Source of the DNA: Margaritispora aquatica | Taxonomy: Eukaryota > Ascomycota > Leotiomycetes > Helotiales > Discinellaceae | DNA: 64,000 nt | Direction of reading: 5' to 3' | Assembly (NCBI GenBank): GCA_007644065.1 | Contig: VJWN01000001.1 | Span: forward strand, 1,626,340-1,690,339 | Shown here: positions 25,386 through 62,217 of the stretch, piece after piece | Numbering within the stretch: the first letter of the stretch is position 1 | How the letters are laid out: the number at the start of each line of letters is the position of its first letter | Notes under the pieces: model-generated | What the model was told of the DNA's origin: nothing | Database searches by the model: none | The model's input: the letters and a program-made list of their open reading frames with translations, nothing else | Program-made: the position numbers and the translations under genes

Positions 25386-27152
25386 CTAAAGAGAATCCCC
25401 TTCATGCTGCTCGGCTGCCGTTAGTACACGACCCAACCCAGATATTCCAAGACATCTCTTGAAGTCAAGATCAGGATCTACTAGCCCTTGACTATAGCGC
25501 AGCATAGTTTTGTCCATGTAGAAGTTAATCAGCCAACCTCTTTGATCGAAAATCTTCAGCTTGCTTCTCGCTTCATCACTCGAACTTGCACTCGGCTCTG
25601 CACTTGGAATAGAAGAGAGCAAATCAGTGTTGGCCGACTTTGCAATGATCTGATAGTCGTCGCTGTCCCCCTCACGTCGAAGAATCAATGGATACAGCGG
25701 TTCGATAAACTGACACACTACGTCCCCAACACGCACACTGTCGGGCCCAACTCCCGCCCGTCCATCTTCATCCACGAATACCCTGCACATGGTATCCGAC
25801 TTCAGACGATCTAAATGCTCGTAGCTGAGCTTCCTCGCTACCTCGCGCAACGCATCCGGAATACGGCTTTCCTTGGGATTCGCGAGCATATACTGTTTCT
25901 CAAACGTCCCCGCCCAGAATGTTGGCTCTTTGAGTCCGGGTTCGTCCCAGCGCTTCGCGTTGTAGTGAGCCCACGCGCGGCGATAGAGTTCTGAAATTTC
26001 GAATTTGGGGTCGTGGCTCAGTGGCTCGCTGACTATGGCGAGTGTGCTGCGGATCCATTTAGGTCGAGGCGAAGAGGTCGGGCTTTGTGCTTGGTATAGG
26101 AGTTCGAGGTTGTGAAGCATGCCGGTTTCCTCGTCGGTCTGGATCACGAGAATCCGGGAAATGTCGAGCGCTGCTAGGAAGTACTCCTTCTCGTCTGTGA
26201 GATTGTGGTTTTGTTCTTCATGGCGAAGTATTGCTTGCTGTAACTGAGCTGGTGTCGTAGCATAATCAACCTTCAAAGCTGCTTTGCAGCACGCAGTTGT
26301 TAGACCGAGAAGACCAAACACCCTATCGCGTATATCCTCGCATTTTGCAGCTCGGTACTTGGTTAAGAGAGATAATACAGACAAAGTCTCAGTCTGGTCC
26401 GGTGTTAACCGGTTTGAGCGCTGTGAAATGAGCTGTGCTAATACGCCGTCTTGAATAATAGCATCAACTTTCGGATCAGCCTTTCGTCTCAGACTATCGT
26501 ACTCAGGCGTACCACACATTGCCAAGTTGAGACATCTACATGCCTCAAAAGCTCTAGCTAGAACATCCCATTCCATACAATGAAATCCACTCTGGATCTG
26601 AATATTCGAGGCACTGAGGACTTCTTGAATAATCCACAATCGCTGCCAGTACTCTATCTTGCAGAAGTTGACCAACGCATAAGCGGGATACAACGTTATC
26701 CGCTCAGGTGCTTTGGCGACAAAACCAAAGACACTCGTGGTGGTATAATTCGAGGGGCCAAGCCAAACCACGACCCTTTCAGCCGCTTGATAGATACGTC
26801 TCATCTGCGTAACTTGCTGGTTTCTTTCCTCAATATCTTGTTGGTTGATGCATATCGCATCGATCCACATCGTTCGAGCGCATTCAACTTGACGCAAATG
26901 AAGCAATGCTGAGCCCAGATTTTGGCGAACAGGAAACGATGAGCCGCTGACCAAAATATTTTGGGTATTGGCGGGACTTCCCCATGTGTAGGATAGAGCT
27001 TCATATGGTAAGGTGCTATCAATGTTGGCGTGTAAGAGTCTGCAACGGATGGGACTGCCTTTCTCGCCAGCTTCGAGGATTAGGAGACGAATCTCATTGT
27101 CTGGAGATTGTAGAGGTAGGTATGAGAACAAAGACCCATGGACCGGCGACAT
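25386..27152 (-). CDS. HET-domain (heterokaryon incompatibility) protein
   Basis: Intronless, 588 residues. The N-terminal HET domain (about residues 48-200) shows all three conserved blocks: YEALSYTWGSP (50-60), TMWIDAICINQQDIEERNQQVTQM with residues 94-117, and AAERVVVWLG (123-132), followed by RLWIIQEVLSAS. HET domains trigger cell death in non-self recognition after hyphal fusion and are TIR-like in fold. The C-terminal 390 residues carry no NACHT, ankyrin or WD repeats, so this is the stand-alone type common in Pezizomycotina, where copies number in the tens. The start MSPVHGSLFS fits the usual 30-50 residue lead into the domain (FSYLPL...IRLLILEAG). Alleles and partner are unknown. Confidence 0.95.
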   Translation of the reverse strand: MSPVHGSLFSYLPLQSPDNEIRLLILEAGEKGSPIRCRLLHANIDSTLPYEALSYTWGSPANTQNILVSGSSFPVRQNLGSALLHLRQVECARTMWIDAICINQQDIEERNQQVTQMRRIYQAAERVVVWLGPSNYTTTSVFGFVAKAPERITLYPAYALVNFCKIEYWQRLWIIQEVLSASNIQIQSGFHCMEWDVLARAFEACRCLNLAMCGTPEYDSLRRKADPKVDAIIQDGVLAQLISQRSNRLTPDQTETLSVLSLLTKYRAAKCEDIRDRVFGLLGLTTACCKAALKVDYATTPAQLQQAILRHEEQNHNLTDEKEYFLAALDISRILVIQTDEETGMLHNLELLYQAQSPTSSPRPKWIRSTLAIVSEPLSHDPKFEISELYRRAWAHYNAKRWDEPGLKEPTFWAGTFEKQYMLANPKESRIPDALREVARKLSYEHLDRLKSDTMCRVFVDEDGRAGVGPDSVRVGDVVCQFIEPLYPLILRREGDSDDYQIIAKSANTDLLSSIPSAEPSASSSDEARSKLKIFDQRGWLINFYMDKTMLRYSQGLVDPDLDFKRCLGISGLGRVLTAAEQHEGDSL

Positions 27153-30100
27153 GATGCTGGTGATCTAAGAGCTTTCGGATGTGCAGAAACGCATAGTGCT
27201 GACTGATGGTGTTTGGCAAGAAGTAGGTCTATTCTTTGGTAAAGTGATGGTTTGAATAAGCTGATATAATGTATGGATGTAAGTAGTTGACAAGATGGCG
27301 TCAGGTGACTCGTGTTAGCCATGTCACATTGAAAATCTGATTCTTTTTCGTGATGCCTGTGTAAGCCATTTCAGCGTCGACGTTACAGCTGAGGGGTAAT
27401 TTGGTATGCTGAAAAAGTGGCAGCAGTATCGTGTCTTGACTGGCTACCCTAAATCCTTGCAACAGCGGCTGAATAATCTATGGAAGCCAGCCATCAGCAA
27501 TGGATTTTCTCCCCACAAATCAAGTTACTCACCTAGCTTTCAATCCATCGCAAGCAGAAAATCACTGAGAATCTTTCAACCCCGAAATTAAGCGAGGTTA
27601 ATCGAGTGCCTCGACTCATGACTTCAAAGCGGATAGCCGTCCATCTCTACTCCCTACTTGAAGGTAGTTCTAATTGAAGTACTAGCTAGTGACTGTACCG
27701 TGGATTTAGTTAACATAGTATATATTTGAATGTTAACTTCAACCATAAGCAACACCAGAACCACAGCTCATGCAGCAAGCCATTTTTAACAAAGACCCAC
27801 ATGTATCACATGGGAAGGAAGCCATGAATACCCAAGAGGCGACAAGACATACAGTTGTAGATTGAGGAATCGTACCTATCTCTCGTTTGTGCAATTTGAC
27901 TTATCAACCATGTCCTGTCACCAAGAATCTTGGGTTTTATCACGATAAACCAGGGAGTATCGATATTTGTGATATTTCCACGACGAGAGGCAAGGTAACG
28001 ATGATTAAGCTGTTCTGTAATTTGGTAGCTGTTGAGTCAGGTTCTCAGAATATCTCGGCTGCTGTTTCCCATATCGTCTCGCCGGCCAACTGCCAATGAG
28101 ATGACAGCCAGTATACAATCATTTGTCACACAGCAGGTGAGGGCATGGAAGCGAGATGACTATGTTAAAATTAGATATTTTGCGCTTCAGTACGTACTTA
28201 ATCTTAGTAAGTTGGTCGCCTGCTTGATGCGTCCACAAATAATCGTTGGTCGTGACTTGCGAATTGGGAAGTAGTGATTGTCTGCTCACCTTTCTAATAT
28301 TAAAACCCAAGCGAGGGAATGACAGTGCGTAATCGGGGGGTAGCCGTTAAGTGAGATAAGATGAAATATAGTCAACATGAATCTTAGTTACATGATAAGT
28401 TTGGCTGACTTTCTACAGCCTGGTAGATAAATGCCTTGCGGAAAATCCGATGTAGCGCTTGTGAGTTGTATGTACTGTATGCTAGGCACACATTTGCTCC
28501 TTCTATGCTCTTGCATTTTTTGAATTTTTTCATTTATGTCAACAAACTAGTAGACACCGCTTCTTCCAGAGTAGCGCAGCGATTGAAGGCCAGAAGTATG
28601 CGGCCGCCACTCCTCGACTGCCTGAGCCACCACATGTTCCATGGGCTCCCAATCAATATACAATTGACTATGACACGCCTCACTTTACCAAAACAGAAAA
28701 GAATTCCATCCATCTGTAGATTGACATGATAATCTATGACCGTGGAGCGGACCATTCCTTCATCGTCGGAAAACAAGAATTATCCAACAAAGCGCTTGTT
28801 GGTGGCTACGGCGCTTCTATGCCTAAACTTTGGTTAATGATTGTGAAGCGCTTGAGGTCCCTGATGCATAATAGTGGATGTAAGGCAATAGCCTAAAAGA
28901 TTGCTGGGACATCCAAAGCTCATTATGGGGTTGGTGGGTGGGGTTTGGACTATCATGCTTCTAAGCGAGACCTCCCTTCAAGTAGCAGCAACATCCTCAG
29001 CAGCACATGATGAAATGTCGACTAGCAAAGCATAAATTAGAATATACAAGCATGTTCCTGGGAGACCTTGGAACAAAATTCATGTTCGTCTGCGGTCCAA
29101 TACGGTATCTCCACGTTTTAATCAGTAATATTGGGAATCCACTCACTTTGTGATACATGTCATCCCACGCTCTTGATCTACAAGAAGCAGGCATAAAACA
29201 AGTAAGCAGTATGTTCATCATCAAGTAGCAGATGCACCATTCCAACAATCTAGGAGTGTGTTTCAGGCTTCCCCGTTCAGATATCGTCCGCATGGAAAGG
29301 CAAGCACGGGACGAACTTATTTCGTAGCTGTCCGGAATTAATACGCCTTTAACGAATAAATTTTTGGCAGTCTGGTTGGCAAGCATTCGATTGCTGCAAC
29401 ATCAACCAGGGCTAAGCCGTCTCAAAGGATAGCGATTGTGAGTTGGAAGCGCGGGATATTGAATTGAGCCTAGAAATCCCGCCGAAATGGCCATGGCTAC
29501 GCCTCCAACAATGCAATTTTGACATGCGCTCCTTGTCTCTCCTTACCACGGCACAATAAAATTCCCAAGACCAGTCTCACGGGACCGGTTTTCGAACCAA
29601 CCGTCCCGACAACTCGTGAGCAGGGGACTTTGACAAGCTTATCAAGTTCCGAGCTTGGCTACGCCTCCAACACCACAACCAGCGTCAAATGCGAAGCCAA
29701 CGTTGGGACTTCACAATCCTAACAAGCAGGCTTCTTGAGGTCCAAAATATGCAACCTACTCAACCATTTGTCTTTCTTTCTCCAGAGTTATACGTACAAG
29801 CGAGGCCCATCACGATGGCTGGGGCGCTTCTCGACTGATCGCGCTTGATTTTGTGATTTTACGAGTTTTCCTCACTAGATGAGTGTGCTGCTATTGGACG
29901 TATCGTGTGAAAAACGCCATGCCGTACGGCAAAGTCAGACGCAGTCGCAGGCGCCGGCCTCTGCATCAGACCAAGCGCAGACAGCATGGCCATTCCAACG
30001 CATCTGTGATCGAGTGTAACATGAACACCAATACCAACATTAGCTTTTGGAATAATCGCGCTGTTCGCTACTTGGGATACACAAGCATTGATCCCTCGGG

Positions 30101-45977: not shown

Positions 45978-46988
45978 TCAAAAGATACCGGTCCTATTGC
46001 CGGATCGATGCTCGATTGCGAAGGTCTTGATAGCCTCCCAGTCTCGACACTGATGCTTAGATCCAGCACCACTGAATCCATTCCTATGCTCAATCCCATC
46101 AGGCCCGATGGTCATCTCAGCAAAATCTAGTGTCGTGTCGCCAGCACACAGTACTGCTTGTCTCACTATAAAGAATCAGTATTCTGTGCGCATAGATGAG
46201 TCCTATCTAGTCTTTAAGGAGCACATACCATAGTCCAGACAGTGATACTCATGGCCATCTCCAGCAAAGCGAGACTTGTCTTTCTTCTCGTACTTCTTGA
46301 TGACATCGCGAAGTACACCCTGAATAGATTAGCTTTGCTCATGATTTCTCAAGAACTAGATTGATGCATACCAGACAGTGGAGTTGGTGTGTCACAGACA
46401 GAGAATAGATTTCAGTGCCTGGAATACCATTTTTGCTCTGTGGCATGTCATATTGACGAGGATTAGGCACATTGAGGAAGCCAGCTCCAACTAACACTTC
46501 TGTCAGTATTTTCTCTAACGTTTGATTAATTAAAACTCACGAGGCATCATCTCATTCCACAGCTTGTCACCTTCAACACCAGTATCCTCATACTTAGTTG
46601 GGAACTCAAACACTACTTCTTTTATCGGAACTACGAACATCAATCAGCTTACTGATGCCATAAACACCAAATCAACAGAAATCCTCAAACATCTAAACTC
46701 ACTCTCAGGAATAAACGCCTGCGGTGGCAACAAGCCCTGCTCAACAGCCGTCCACTCCGCTACCGCTGTCGCCGTCACCGTCGACTTTCCCCACGACTCA
46801 AAGGTCTCGCTTCGACCAACTGCCAAGCCAACCACGAACCACATAATCGCAAACGCGATCAAGAAAACCACGCTCATCACATCGGCCACATTGAATTCCG
46901 TATTCCACGACCGACGAGCTTGCGTCGTGTTCGTGTCATCCGCTTTCTCCTCGTCAAGAGGGATGGAAGTGTAAGTTACTTTCGACAT
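45978..46988 (-). CDS. UstYa-like protein (DUF3328), single-pass membrane
   Basis: Member of the UstYa/DUF3328 family, oxidases that cyclise or hydroxylate peptides in fungal RiPP pathways or act in other secondary metabolism. Five exons (46703-46988, 46541-46630, 46372-46490, 46229-46319, 45978-46165) join in phase to 257 residues. One membrane helix lies at about residues 38-60 (MSVVFLIAFAIMWFVVGLAVG) after a polar N-terminus. Both HxxHC motifs are intact: HQLHC (160-164) in YSLSVTHQLHCL and HEYHC (188-192) in GHEYHCLDYVRQAVLCAGDTTLD; the second is followed by the C-A-x-D-T-x-L stretch typical of the family. Flanking genes (carboxypeptidase, release factor) do not form a biosynthetic cluster, so a role outside RiPP synthesis is equally possible. 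Confidence 0.88.
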
Positions 46989-48987: not shown

Positions 48988-50959
48988 ATGCCCCTCAATC
49001 TTAGTTCCGTCTTCCCGGCAGAGGATCCGGAGTTTCAATCTTTCCCAAGCAGGAGAAGTGTTGTACACAGTACTGAGGGCATGATTGCTTGTACCCAACC
49101 ATTAGCAGCACGATGTGGTCTTAAGATTTTAGATGCTGGTGGAAATGCCGCCGTGAGCTTCATCTACCCCACTTTCAATTTCTATCACTGACAAATATCA
49201 GGATGCAGCAGTTGCCGTTGGTATGTCAAACAACTTCTGTTAAATGCAATGGTTCTAATTCATAATAGCTGCCGGTCTGAACTTGACTGAGCCCACCTCA
49301 ACTGGAATTGGTGGTGATATGTTTTGTCTCTTCTATGATGCCAAAACTAAGAAAATCTCGGCTATGAATGGCTCGGGACGTTCTTCAGCCAAATCAACTC
49401 TTGAAGCGACTCGCAAATCTCTTGGCCTCGAGGATGGCGACAACTCACATATTCCACTGGACAGTGTCCATTGTGTGACAGTACCAGGTGCAGCAGCTGG
49501 CTGGGTTGACACTGTCGAGAAGTTCGGAAGTGGCAAATTGTCCATGGAACAGATCTTAGCTCCGGTCATTGAACTAGCAGAGAGAGGGTTTCCTGTTTCG
49601 GAACTTTCCTCTACAATGGTGAGCTTAAACCATATCCGAGATGTTGAAAAAATCTAATTCCTCACGTAGTGGAGAAATGGTGAGGAGAAACTCAAAACAG
49701 CATCTCCCAATTTCTCGGAGCTCCTCAAGAAAGACAAAAATGGGAACTTCAGAGGTCCTAAACCAGGAGAGCTGATGAAGAACCCAAACTTGGCTAAAAC
49801 ATTTCGCACTTTAGCGAAGGAAGGCAAGAAAGGGTTTTACACGGGTCCAATTGCTAAAGCCATTATTGAAGTCACTAAGGCACGTGGTGGCTTTCTAGAA
49901 CTCGAAGATTTGCAGAAGCACTTGGAGCTTGGAAGCGAACCTGTGGAGCCCATTTCTTACGTCTTCAAAGGTCAAGGCTACGTGAAGACGCATGGAAAAT
50001 ACGTCGATGGTGCTTCAAGCCAAGGTGAAAACGAAGACAACCACGGCGTTGAGCTATGGGAACATCCTCCAAACGGGCAAGGTATTGTAGCTTTAATGGC
50101 ACTTGGAATTCTGGAGGCGTTGGAGGAGAGTGGCAAGATACCAACGTTCACTCCTGAGCAACACAACTCAGCAGAGTATCTCCACGCTGTTATCGAATCA
50201 CTTCGCATAGCTTTCGCGGACGCAAGCTGGTTCGTCGCTGATGGGAAAGTGCCATGCGCAGAAATGGTATCAAAGCCTTACCTCGCTTCTCGGGCTAAGC
50301 TGTTTGATGCCACAAAGGCTTCAGACAAGATCTACGACCATGGCAGTCCGGCTCACAGACCTAGCGACACTGTTTACTTCGCTGTTACAGACAAAGAAGG
50401 AAACGGAATTTCATTCATCAACTCTAACTTCCATGGTTTCGGTTCAGGCATCATACCTGCTGGCACAGGCTTCGTGCTCCAGAATCGTGGTGGAGGTTTC
50501 CAACTCACTCCAGGTCATCCTAACGCTATTGCGCCTTCGAAGCGTCCTTATCACACCATAATCCCCGCTATGATCACGAACAAGCACGACGACAGTCTGC
50601 ACTCTGTATACGGTGTCATGGGCGGCTTTATGCAACCCCAAGGACACGTTCAAGTCCTGCTTAACATGCTGGCATTCAAATACAACCCTCAAGCTGCACT
50701 TGATGCGCCGAGATTCTGTATTGGTGCTGAATTCATGCCTGGTGATGGTCAGGCTAGGAATGTGTTCCTAGAAGAGGGCATCACGGAGGAGGTGTGTGAG
50801 AAGTTGAAGAGTATGGGTCATGCGGCGAGTATTGTGACAGGGTATGAAAGAGGTGTGTTTGGAAGAGGACAGGTCATTAGGAGTCATGTGGAGGATGGCA
50901 CGGTTGTGTTCTCTGGAGGTAGTGATCCTAGAGGTGATGGAGCTGCTTTTCCTGGATAA
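48988..50959 (+). CDS. Gamma-glutamyltransferase (Ntn-hydrolase), no signal peptide
   Basis: Hydrolyses or transfers gamma-glutamyl groups, e.g. from glutathione. Exons 48988-49152, 49202-49220, 49269-49618 and 49670-50959 give 607 residues; exon 2 is only 19 bp (DAAVAV) and is needed to restore [20 protein letters not shown]. Other landmarks: [25 protein letters not shown], the likely autocatalytic cleavage Thr412 in [19 protein letters not shown], and [17 protein letters not shown]. The start ([16 protein letters not shown]) is not a signal peptide or anchor, unlike classical Ecm38-type enzymes, so this is the cytosolic, bacterial-like subgroup. The cleavage Thr is followed by Val rather than the commoner Thr-His. 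Likely role in glutathione or gamma-glutamyl peptide breakdown. Confidence 0.92.
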
Positions 50960-52079: not shown

Positions 52080-52760
52080 CTATGACCCTATCGCGTTTGT
52101 CCGCCTGTTTAAAGGTTGTTGTTCCGGGAAATTTTGTGGAGCCATGTACACGTTGATGAACTGCCGTGGATATTGTATCCAATGCTGCTTTCTCCCAAAG
52201 TGTATCGCAACAAAAATCGCCACAATACCGATGACGCTGCCGATTACAATACCCGCGATGGTAAGTTTGGTCTCTCCGCCAGATTTCGGGGGCTTTGTCG
52301 GTTCTGGTGTCCCAGTAGCTGTGCTCGTCGCAAGTGTCGTCACTCCAGTCCCAGGAGACGGTTGCGTTGACATGGTGGTCGTAGGGGGGGCCGCCGTTAC
52401 CCCACCTGCGTTGGTAAAACAATAGCCAGCCAGAATAGCCGTGGCGATTGGGACCATTTGCCATGCACACTTATTATAGCAATGCTCTGAAATCGAGCTC
52501 CGAAGCTCCACGGACCGGGTTTTGTTGCCACAGATGCAGTTAGCTGCGTTGACTGGGTCACAGTTGTATTTAGTTTTGAAAGCGTCCGAGGGCGTGATCG
52601 CGCATTCGGTTACGCAGTGTGGTGTTGTTTGACTTGCGATAGCGTACTCGGCGACGTCTTGAAAGACGACTTCGGTCGTTGATGTAGCGTATAAGAGGAG
52701 GGTAGTGCTTGAGAGGAGGAATAAAAACATCGGCCATTTCAATGCTAGGAACATGGCCAT
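52080..52760 (-). CDS. CFEM-like membrane-anchored cell-surface protein
   Basis: Intronless, 226 residues. Order: signal peptide (about 1-28, MFLFLLSSTTLLLYATS), Cys-rich ectodomain, Thr/Ser/Pro-rich linker (122-163), one membrane helix (about 166-187, LTIAGIVIGSVIGIVAIFVAIHF) and a 38-residue basic cytoplasmic tail. The ectodomain has eight cysteines at 49, 53, 67, 75, 77, 94, 98 and 114: PHC-x3-C-x13-C-D-x6-C-x-C-x16-C-x3-C-x15-C. This is the CFEM plan (eight Cys, PxC start, CxC, final spacing 15), with two loops slightly longer than the published consensus and an Asp (68) right after the third Cys, near the usual haem-coordinating Asp. CFEM proteins act in haem uptake, cell-wall function or as receptors such as Pth11. 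Here the single helix suggests a surface sensor or anchored binding protein. Confidence 0.8.
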   Translation of the reverse strand: MAMFLALKWPMFLFLLSSTTLLLYATSTTEVVFQDVAEYAIASQTTPHCVTECAITPSDAFKTKYNCDPVNAANCICGNKTRSVELRSSISEHCYNKCAWQMVPIATAILAGYCFTNAGGVTAAPPTTTMSTQPSPGTGVTTLATSTATGTPEPTKPPKSGGETKLTIAGIVIGSVIGIVAIFVAIHFGRKQHWIQYPRQFINVYMAPQNFPEQQPLNRRTNAIGS

Positions 52761-55155
52761 CTCGTGTTGAGGAAAGGGTTCCAGTAAGTAGCTTGAGGTT
52801 TAGTGGTACTAACGCGGTGCGAAGTATGAGGCCAAGTTATGTAGCTTTGAACTTATGGGGCAATTGCAAACGTTAAGGCGTGGAACAGAGGCATTATAAC
52901 TCATGTATAAAGTAGGGCTGTTTGACCATGGCTGTGTTAGCCATCAACTTGCATCTTGAAAAGGCGTGTCTGCCACGTCTTTACTTGGCCATAATGTTTA
53001 CATTTCTTGTCCTAACTAAGCCGCAAGACTTGAAATGTGAACTTGAAATGAGAATGACTGGGTGTCATTGCTCATTTAAAAGAAGGCATCCATTTTCGAT
53101 ACTCAGCCGGTATTTAAATTTGGGACAGCGAATCAGGCTACAGATCTTGACGCCGGAGGTGCACACGATATGCAAGATGTCTACACAGCATACTGTCTGT
53201 GTAACGTTGAGGGCAGGATTCCAAAGGTCAGCCATTAGTTTTAAATACTTTCCGAGGGCCTCTTTTCTCCGACGATGTGAGATACTGTTAGCCTTGGGTA
53301 TTCTCTTCTTTCAAGCACGGCCTGTGATCACGATAATGAAGGGTAGTAAGCGAGACTCTACCACGTTTTGATTCTGACATTGTATATTCGAGGCTCTTTT
53401 AGCAAAGATACTCTTGTGAGGGCTTTACTAGCGCGGTTGCTCATTGCTTCCCTCCATACCTTACATGGAGATAGAACAATTGAGCCGTAGGCCCCGCACA
53501 GCAGTAAACAAAGCATATGGTTAACCACGAAACCTCCTTGGAGAACGCCACAAGTCACTTTGAGGTTCATCTGATATATGATATAATACAATCAAGTCAG
53601 CATAGCTCTAAGTGATATGTTATGTAGAGCACCTCCTTTACTTATTCAGATACTTCACGTATATTATACTTCATCCCTTCCTACTTGCCTAGCTAAATTG
53701 ACTGAGCTATTATGCTATTCCTAAACAAAGAATATTCGCGATGGCAGCCGGTTCCGGTTCCGGTTCCATTAAGCAGCCAGATTCCCTTCTATCTTTTAGG
53801 TTATAATGATGATAAAAAGGTGTTAACAGTATTGACTTTAGTGTTACTTGACGTTGTAGTGTAAATAATGTTAAAGAGTTCACAAAGAGGAAGTCGAAGT
53901 CGAAAGCGATTGTATCACCAACCCACTCAAAAGAAACACAGAATCAGGTTCCGTACGAGGGAGCGTTTCTGTAATAGTACTTTTTGGTCCGTTTGTTGGT
54001 AATGATTGGTTTTTGAGGCCCTGAGATCTTCCCCCCTTTTCGCTTCGCATATTCAGCCACACTGCAACGCCCAAAATGACGTAGTGTCGCTATAGTCGGA
54101 AAACCGTCCTGACCAGGTCACGTATGTTTCGAAATATCCGAGCAAAATGCATTGTTGTTAAGATACAAGCAAGTTGTGGGTCGATATAATAAATGGCCAA
54201 GGTTTAAAAATATAGGTGATGTTACTTCTTGTCCCCTTTGCCAAGATGAAGAAGCTTTTTGTGAGGTTTCTAGGATGAACTCTAAACACTAGATATCAAG
54301 CTTGGTGGTTATCTTGGTTCGAGGTCATCTATCTATCCCTTGACAGGAAATATCTTTCTCGCTCAAGACGAGTCTAGTAACATACCCATCTGACCGATGA
54401 TACAACAGATCAAGTGCTGCTGATGTACAATGTCCATGACCCACAAGATGATGTGCATCTTCGCCAGTCAGGATATGCAGGATGTCTTTGTTTCACTGTG
54501 CCAAGTATTTTGTCCGCCACGGTACCTTTCTAGGGTTACAGGTTGACTTCGATTCATGATCCAGGGAGCTTCCCTTTTTTGTCTAGCACACCTGTTATTT
54601 ACGTCTCAGTACATGCCATCCCACTTCTCTTCTTATCAATATGCCTTCTACCGGCATAATGTATCCACTCCCCAAGTCCCACACTCGAGGCACTACCCGC
54701 TGACCTGAACCCCAGATGCAATGCGCTTGCCCCTCCAAGGTGGTGATCTGCACCAGTTATACCCCTCTATTGATGACGCCGTCTCCTTTGTGTGAGGTTT
54801 GTGCCAGTATCAAGCTTTTGGGAAACCGCTTGCACAGGATTCTGGGTCTAGATAGGTACCACTGCAAGCAAGCAAGCCTGCTCTACTCGTCTTGAAGCTT
54901 GCCTCGTCGTCCACTTCCAACTCCACTGCTACCACAGTTGTTCTTGCCTCCAGCGAGGTCTCCACCTACACAATGCGAATGCGACTTCTGAAAGCTAATG
55001 CAGGTTGCAATACATATATCACATCCTTTTCTCTTTCGTTTGCTTTCTCTCCTCATACCATCTTCATCTCCTCCTTCACTACACCTTGAAAACAACGAAC
55101 CTCTTTCTTATCACTAGCACTTTTGAAAATTTCAACTATTACTACACACTTCAAC
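52761..55155. other. Gene-poor stretch before the aspartic protease
   Basis: 2.4 kb without a supported gene. A 149-codon ORF at 52922-53371 has a hydrophobic start but no family features. A short GGTTCC repeat occurs near 53750-53768. Confidence 0.5.
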
Positions 55156-61345: not shown

Positions 61346-61351
61346 TATAAA
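61346..61351 (+). promoter_or_regulatory. TATA box of the peptide-precursor gene
   Basis: TATAAA lies 150 bp before the start codon. It is followed by a long C/T/A-rich leader (61390-61500) ending CCACCAACAAAATGG, the pyrimidine-rich type of leader common in strongly expressed fungal genes. Placement is plausible but not proven. Confidence 0.5.
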
Positions 61352-61500: not shown

Positions 61501-62217
61501 ATGGTTCACCTCACCTCTCTCCTCATCACCATCCCCCTCCTCCTCGCAACCACTAGCACTGCAATCCCCTTCGGTATCTCCCCGGCAAAGAATTGGAGAC
61601 GCGAAGCTGCTGCTGTTGCTGAGGCAGAGCCTGCCGACTGGAAACGAGAAGCTAGTCCATTCTTCCCCAACAAGGACTGGAAGAAGAGAAGTCCAGAGGC
61701 AGAACCCGCCGATTGGAAGAAGAGAAGCCCAGAGGCAGAGCCAGCTGACTGGAGACGAGAAGCTAGTCCATTCTTCCCCAACAAGGACTGGAAGAAGAGA
61801 AGTCCAGAACCAGAGCCAGCTGATTGGAAACGAGAAGCTAGCCCCGGCGCCCCAAGTTGGAAGAAGAGAAGCCCAGAAGCAGAGGCAGCTGACTGGAAGC
61901 GAGAAGCAAGTCCCAGCCTCCCAGCCGGAGGCTGGAAGAGGAGCCCCGAAGCAGAGGCTCAACCAGAACCAGCTCCCATCACACCCGCCCGCCCATTTAA
62001 GCGTGAAGCCGCACCAGAGCCAGCCGACTGGAAACGCGCCGCCAACCCCATCGCATGGATCGACCACATCCCATGGAGGAGGAATCCCGAGGCAGCTCCT
62101 ATTACGCCCGCGCATCCGTTCAAGCGTGAAGCCGCACCCGAACCAGCCGACTGGAAACGAGATGCGGCGGCTCTGGTCCCTGCTGGGTTGGAGAAGCCTG
62201 CTCTGTTGGCTGTTTAG
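61501..62217 (+). CDS. Repetitive secreted peptide precursor with 15 Kex2-type dibasic sites (KEP candidate)
   Basis: Intronless, 238 residues, no cysteine. Signal peptide about 1-21 (LTSLLITIPLLLATTSTA). The rest is a string of 16 segments separated by KR, KKR or RR at residues 33, 48, 61, 73, 85, 98, 110, 121, 133, 146, 167, 178, 193, 208 and 219. Each site is directly preceded by Trp (13 times) or Phe (twice). Segments include EASPFFPNKDW (twice), SPEAEPADW (twice), SPEPEPADW, SPEAEAADW, EASPGAPSW, EASPSLPAGGW, EAAPEPADW (twice), AANPIAWIDHIPW and NPEAAPITPAHPF. They start with Glu-Ala, Ser-Pro, Ala-Pro or Asn-Pro pairs, the kind trimmed by dipeptidyl aminopeptidases. The architecture matches kexin-processed secreted peptides, alpha-pheromone precursors and dikaritin (UstA-type) precursors. 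No pheromone core (W-C...C) is present. Two DNA segments 111 bp apart (from 61648 and 61759) are nearly identical, showing recent duplication. Confidence 0.85.
   Translation: MVHLTSLLITIPLLLATTSTAIPFGISPAKNWRREAAAVAEAEPADWKREASPFFPNKDWKKRSPEAEPADWKKRSPEAEPADWRREASPFFPNKDWKKRSPEPEPADWKREASPGAPSWKKRSPEAEAADWKREASPSLPAGGWKRSPEAEAQPEPAPITPARPFKREAAPEPADWKRAANPIAWIDHIPWRRNPEAAPITPAHPFKREAAPEPADWKRDAAALVPAGLEKPALLAV

Follow-up and report, generated by a model that had tools for sequence, protein, structure and literature searches.

Which peptides the frame at 61501-62217 (+ strand) might release, and for what use, is the question raised by this locus of the window, i.e., the whole stretch of 64,000 nucleotides of Margaritispora aquatica DNA that was analysed. 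In the first-pass annotation, the frame was read as a secreted precursor on the plan of the Kex2-processed repeat proteins (KEPs), the alpha-pheromone precursors, and the UstA-type RiPPs. A Kex2-type secreted precursor is supported by the present analysis. We consider it probable that the precursor is a Ste13-type KEP of a filamentous ascomycete, which gives rise to linear peptides whose likeliest use is extracellular signalling rather than mating.

The precursor gene and its processing sites

The gene is a single open frame of 238 amino acids plus a stop codon, which begins with the ATG at 61501 and can be read without an intron; the start and stop positions first assigned to it are exact. 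A TATAAA sequence about 155 bases 5' of the ATG (61346-61351, + strand) may serve as its promoter element. The N terminus is hydrophobic and carries a cleavage site of small residues, and from this by-eye reading of a signal-like start we predict the signal peptide MVHLTSLLITIPLLLATTSTA (61501-61563), with cleavage between MVHLTSLLITIPLLLATTSTA and IP. It is followed, on the same strand, by the N-terminal peptide IPFGISPAKNW with RR (61564-61602), by 14 internal Kex2 units (61603-62160), each consisting of an X-A/X-P ladder, a core, and KR, KKR, or RR, and by the C-terminal tail DAAALVPAGLEKPALLAV with the stop codon (62161-62217). The precursor has no Cys, no Tyr, and no N-glycosylation sequon.

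Fifteen basic runs (KR, KKR, or RR, with at least two basic residues) divide the chain into 16 fragments. When the residues of the mature chain were shuffled, the mean number of such runs was 5.6 and the maximum 13, and none of 20000 shuffles reached 15. The residue before the basic run is W in 13 of the 15 cases and F in the other two. The signal-like start, the 15 dibasic sites, the lack of Cys, and the 16 fragments reported earlier are thus real, the counts having been reproduced and the signal part having been read by eye.

In all 14 internal fragments, the Kex2 site is followed in phase by an uninterrupted series of at least two X-Ala or X-Pro dipeptides. Over the 16 fragments the ladder amounts to 47 dipeptides, compared with a mean of 13.1 after shuffling within fragments, and 0 of 20000 shuffles reached the observed number. 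Literal trimming of the ladder is predicted to leave the cores ADW (seven times), FFPNKDW (twice), SLPAGGW, ITPARPF, ITPAHPF, WIDHIPW, and GAPSW, as well as two end pieces, the N-terminal (IP)FGISPAKNW and the C-terminal tail; GAPSW would be shortened to PSW, should Pro after the cut be tolerated. Seven fragments between basic runs end in ADW and measure 9-13 amino acids before trimming, where at least three similar repeats are asked of a KEP. Among the 15 fragments that precede a basic run, the end -PADW occurs in six, -AADW in one (SPEAEAADW), and -APSW in one.

The five distinct longer internal cores are all exactly 7 residues long after trimming, which was not matched in any of 20000 shuffles, this set of cores having been picked post hoc. 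Pro occupies position 3 in five of the seven distinct non-ADW 7-mers, a weak pattern whose column conservation was matched in 1078 of 20000 shuffles. A Pro immediately C-terminal to the bond to be cut blocks dipeptidyl peptidases; the position-3 Pro of the heptapeptides would thus be a natural stop for trimming. The frame had been described as an alternation of two core classes, one acidic and one hydrophobic. Separate cores, mostly of 7 residues, do exist, but the alternation is only approximate, and the acidic SPEAEP and EAEA stretches are themselves X-A/X-P ladder, so that seven fragments would collapse to ADW on trimming. By the logic of Kex2 and Ste13, the acidic class is thus mainly a removable spacer ending in ADW.

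Comparison of the repeats

A block of 111 bases is present in 2.0 copies with 90% matches at 61621-61838 (+ strand) and contains both FFPNKDW cores, which are identical at the DNA level. This block is a recent internal duplication. The cores ITPARPF (61978-61998, + strand) and ITPAHPF (62101-62121, + strand) differ by five synonymous codons and one amino acid. When the longer repeat pair to which they belong, PITPAxPFKREAAPEPADWKR, was aligned together with the next codon (22 codons), 13 base differences were found, 11 of which are at third positions, and only 2 amino acids are changed; none of 20000 uniform random placements of the differences was equally conservative. Likewise, the seven ADW triplets show 22 pairwise synonymous differences and no nonsynonymous one. 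Since the differences between repeats lie mostly at third positions, the alignment of the repeat units that had been called for supports 61501-62217 as a coding frame. In this comparison of the repeats of one gene, the pattern supports that the frame is translated and that the peptides themselves are constrained, beyond the cleavage sites alone.

Homologues and processing enzymes

A protein search with the whole chain gave no homologue at E ≤ 0.1 among the best 7997 candidates by shared words, and a search with residues 128-238 gave none at E ≤ 1 among 1248 candidates, both queries being of low complexity. No paralogue was found in the genome (42.4 Mb in 49 contigs) at E ≤ 1, Pfam, NCBIfam, and PDB yielded no usable match to the precursor (best PDB E value of 0.66), and there was no Rfam match in the window. 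The strings FFPNKDW, ITPARPF, SLPAGGW, WIDHIPW, EPADWKR, and ITPAHPF were met in no paper of the open-access collection searched, a search of the papers without their supplements. The earlier statement that the cores match nothing known is borne out by these results, namely, by the lack of a homologue, a paralogue, a Pfam family, or a literature occurrence of the core strings. A codon pattern for WKREA, with WKSEA also admitted, had 33 matches in the whole genome against 13 for a backward-pattern control, and three of them are in the precursor gene; no further KEP-like locus was found among 29 of the 30 matches outside it (C49:431965 was left out).

As a control, the same protein set was searched with Ste2, and nine proteins were recovered, some of them named Cadophora, Oculimacula, and Xylogone. 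At the top stood unnamed fragments that cover 63% of the query at 61% identity; among full-length proteins with an organism name, identity peaked at 35-36%. The set thus includes some Leotiomycete proteins, and close relatives of the source fungus are probably missing from it because the full-length Ste2 matches are only 35-36% identical. A Leotiomycete host is indicated by these Ste2 matches, by a HET-domain protein encoded in the window, and by the ITS1/5.8S/ITS2 region, which resembles that of Leotiomycetes/Helotiales.

The genome carries candidates for the enzymes of the route. A Kex2-type P domain was found at one locus, where two partial matches lie side by side; in both of them a stop was read through (presumably introns). 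DPPIV_N matched at two loci, one of which is a 915-aa frame whose N terminus has a hydrophobic stretch, like that of Ste13/DapB. Ste2 is present as an open frame of 408 amino acids. The KEP architecture, the phase of the ladder, the selection on the peptides, and the Kex2-type and Ste13-type genes can all be read from the DNA.

Predicted processing and comparison with known KEPs

From these features we infer the cleavages, the secretion, and the signalling role of the peptides. The signal peptide would route the precursor to secretion, cleavage by Kex2 would follow after each KR, KKR, or RR, and a Kex1-type carboxypeptidase would strip the basic residues to expose C-terminal W or F. A Golgi dipeptidyl peptidase of the Ste13/DapB type would take off X-Ala and X-Pro dipeptides successively until the end of the ladder or, alternatively, given the specificity of such enzymes, would halt where the next residue is Pro. 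The material released outside the cell would be a linear mixture of the seven ADW, the heptapeptides (two FFPNKDW, SLPAGGW, ITPARPF, ITPAHPF, and WIDHIPW), and GAPSW, and these peptides would act as extracellular signals towards the same or other organisms. Some points speak against this reading. A hormone with a single receptor does not need several unlike cores per precursor; the cores are very short, and trimming of the ladder may be incomplete; and the protein set searched yielded no homologue, even though it contains Ste2 of some Leotiomycetes.

KEPs as a class have already been described. One census reports 1193 KEPs, of which 79 have two or three types of repeated motif (PMC6339444), and another reports 7878, of which 2560 are without homologues, and describes multi-core KEPs as frequent (PMC7329392). 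The Ste13 signature is described for alpha-factor precursors, and KEPs that carry it are rated good candidates for peptidic hormones (PMC6339444). Ste13 signatures are on record for KEPs, and so are precursors with cores of more than one type (PMC6339444, PMC7329392). Like the multi-core KEPs of these two reports, the precursor has more than one class of product; it interleaves a constant ADW unit with a varied, mostly heptapeptide set and has an in-phase Ste13 ladder, the comparison being with their class description. What appears to be new is this combination of a constant ADW unit and varied, mostly heptapeptide cores in one Ste13-type precursor of an ascomycete.

The nearest likeness is to KEPs of Agaricomycetes, and an XSDW motif is mentioned for Basidiomycota KEPs in PMC6339444. 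According to PMC9769878, SGTGEASAADW was detected in Lentinula by mass spectrometry, SGVAADW and its relatives were detected in Pleurotus fruiting bodies, and expression of a precursor of Coprinopsis in P. pastoris gave detectable QYKAPSW. The precursors described there (Pleurotus KEP 1091723/1439342, Lentinula KEP 2599, and Coprinopsis KEP 490115) resemble the present one in their Kex2 sites and tryptophan-ended cores, and the X-A/X-P motifs reported for those of Pleurotus and Coprinopsis 490115 are present here too. Both sides share the ends -AADW and -APSW, which are seen here in SPEAEAADW and GAPSW (PMC9769878). In contrast, the Agaricomycete KEPs described in that report release a single core or a few similar ones, whereas this precursor has ADW and several unlike cores, two of them F-ended (PMC9769878); -PADW is the end of six of its seven ADW fragments, and the host is an ascomycete. 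Homology to the Agaricomycete -AADW KEPs was not detected at E ≤ 0.1 (whole chain, best 7997 candidates) or at E ≤ 1 (residues 128-238) with these low-complexity queries. The likeness rests on very few residues, and such short endings could be convergent. When six KEPs were knocked out in Coprinopsis, no apparent phenotype was reported (PMC9769878).

The Ste13 signature in Ascomycota is described as generally dedicated only to alpha-type pheromones (PMC6339444). If a Ste13-type precursor has non-pheromone cores of several sequences under selection at the peptide level, ascomycetes would use the Ste13 route for other extracellular peptides too. A bolder reading, speculative and rather unlikely in our view, is that of a non-mating hormone precursor with combinatorial ligands, in which a constant ADW would be combined with variable heptapeptides, mostly xxPxxx(W/F), whose position-3 Pro would end trimming. 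Taken with the -AADW peptides of mushrooms, such a precursor would point to a tryptophan-ended signalling language common to Ascomycota and Basidiomycota and separate from mating. The exact peptide sequences predicted here provide targets for mass spectrometry.

Alternative explanations

A chance or composition artefact, in which a non-genic frame of low complexity mimics a precursor, is extremely unlikely. The composition of the precursor is biased (A, P, E, K, R, and W), and further long stop-to-stop frames run across it (314 aa on the + strand, and 285 aa and 150 aa on the - strand). However, the third-position bias of the repeat differences in the 61501-62217 frame argues against an artefact, as do the signal-like start, the TATA box, the phase of the ladder, and the W/F rule before basic runs, and the codon-position pattern of the repeats speaks against the overlapping frames. 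That the gene encodes a structural or surface-active repeat protein of the Rep1 kind, known from Ustilago maydis, and would supply secreted peptides to coat hyphae is in our view very unlikely. Rep1 peptides are longer than 3-7 aa, the size of most of the products predicted here. Rep1, too, is a secreted precursor processed by Kex2, and its peptides attach to hyphae, but it is described as being without a Ste13 signature (PMC6339444). A role in mating, as the alpha-type pheromone precursor of this fungus with cores that have diverged strongly, is also distinctly unlikely; the first reading had partly drawn on this plan. The ascomycete precursors of this kind (ppg1/MFalpha) have the same signal peptide, Kex2 and Ste13 sites, and expected linear products, the Ste2 frame is open in the genome, and atypical alpha-factors do exist in Leotiomycetes (2 divergent ones and 9 from Erysiphaceae among 115 from 124 species; PMC10569646). 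Leotiomycete alpha-factors, however, are reported to have conserved repeats of 9-14 aa, most of which contain GQ or PG, and two Cys are present in the cores quoted for the family (PMC10569646). Here the characteristic pheromone features fail: there is no Cys pair, no GQ, and no repeated core of 9-14 aa, a single PG lies at the ladder/core junction of SPGAPSW, and the trimmed internal cores have 3, 5, or 7 residues and several unlike sequences. In favour of a diverged pheromone, three exact codon patterns disclosed no canonical Cys/GQ precursor elsewhere in the genome. WCxxxGQxCW had 2 matches (control, 0), WCxxxGxxCW had 16 (control, 2), all of which were inspected, and the loosest pattern, Cxxx-GQ-(P/G/A/R)-C, had 38 (control, 28). 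Of these 38, 18 were inspected. In 17 of them P or G precedes the last Cys and the motif is free of stops, and these were read by eye with 200 bases on either side; the other, on contig C15, has a stop in the motif. None of the inspected matches looked like a pheromone precursor, and no tandem array of the loosest pattern was seen, with no two of its 38 matches within 16 kb. Such exact-motif searches are weak evidence for a missing canonical gene, 20 of the 38 matches being uninspected.

The remaining alternative is that the precursor yields cyclic RiPPs, the W/F-containing cores being cross-linked after Kex2 cleavage by a UstYa-type oxidase. We consider this unlikely; the UstA-type part of the initial proposal is possible but unsupported. 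An intact UstYa-family gene with 5 exons, 257 aa, and HQLHC and HEYHC motifs lies at 45978-46988 on the - strand (PF11807, 81.8 bits), 14.5 kb from the precursor, and may be its partner. With at least 12 UstYa loci in 42.4 Mb (17 matches merged within 1 kb), the chance that one falls within about 15.5 kb to either side comes to about 0.9%, rising to about 2.7% for 48 kb, both figures being judged post hoc. A crude KEP filter over the window and 29 kb downstream passed only the precursor and two frames judged by eye not to be KEP-like, and one KEP type with W and P has four of its seven members linked to UstYa (PMC7329392). The dikaritin-type precursors (UstA, PhomA, and asperipin-2a) are likewise secreted, Kex2-cut repeat chains, and that of asperipin-2a is named as a case with multiple repeat types (PMC7329392), as the precursor here has several core types. 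They differ from it in that the precursor lacks Tyr, has no adjoining UstYa gene in view, and carries a Ste13 ladder. Tyr is present in 65.6% of UstYa-linked repeats and hence is not absolute (PMC7329392). At least five recognised genes separate the UstYa gene from the precursor, compared with a literature mean of 3.09 genes for UstYa-linked KEPs (PMC7329392), and the Ste13 signature is reported to be absent from the precursors of the toxic cyclic tetrapeptides and epichloecyclins (PMC6339444). Moreover, the same genome does show a linked arrangement elsewhere: on contig C35, UstYa loci lie a few kb from a different repeat gene, of the di-histidine kind.

Genomic surroundings

The KEP-like locus on contig C35 (about 49585-50517) has a signal-like start in an 88-aa first frame and tandem repeats HHTEKQIAAKKAKAA...ARDVEAREP, with the UstYa loci at C35:44238-47603. 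It resembles two di-histidine KEP types that are reported to be mostly UstYa-linked (57 of 64 and 45 of 49; PMC7329392).

In the window, the scanned frames to the left of the precursor are, from left to right, those of PRELI, S10 carboxypeptidase, UstYa, peptide-chain release factor, gamma-glutamyl transpeptidase, a 239-aa frame, aspartic protease, and Na/Ca exchanger. To its right are those of a CCCH zinc-finger protein, a 363-aa frame without a match, Sec1, chitin synthase, a pro-kumamolisin-type protease, and PLD. The UstYa gene adjoins that of the peptide-chain release factor, and the crude filter revealed no KEP-like frame closer to it than the precursor. By gene content, these surroundings look ordinary rather than like a biosynthetic cluster.

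Two further features of the window are worth recording. The 239-aa frame (52080-52799, - strand) has an N-terminal and internal hydrophobic stretches, with matches (OATP, WSC, and CFEM) only below the curated cut-off. A HET-domain (heterokaryon incompatibility) protein is encoded at 25386-27164 on the - strand (PF06985).
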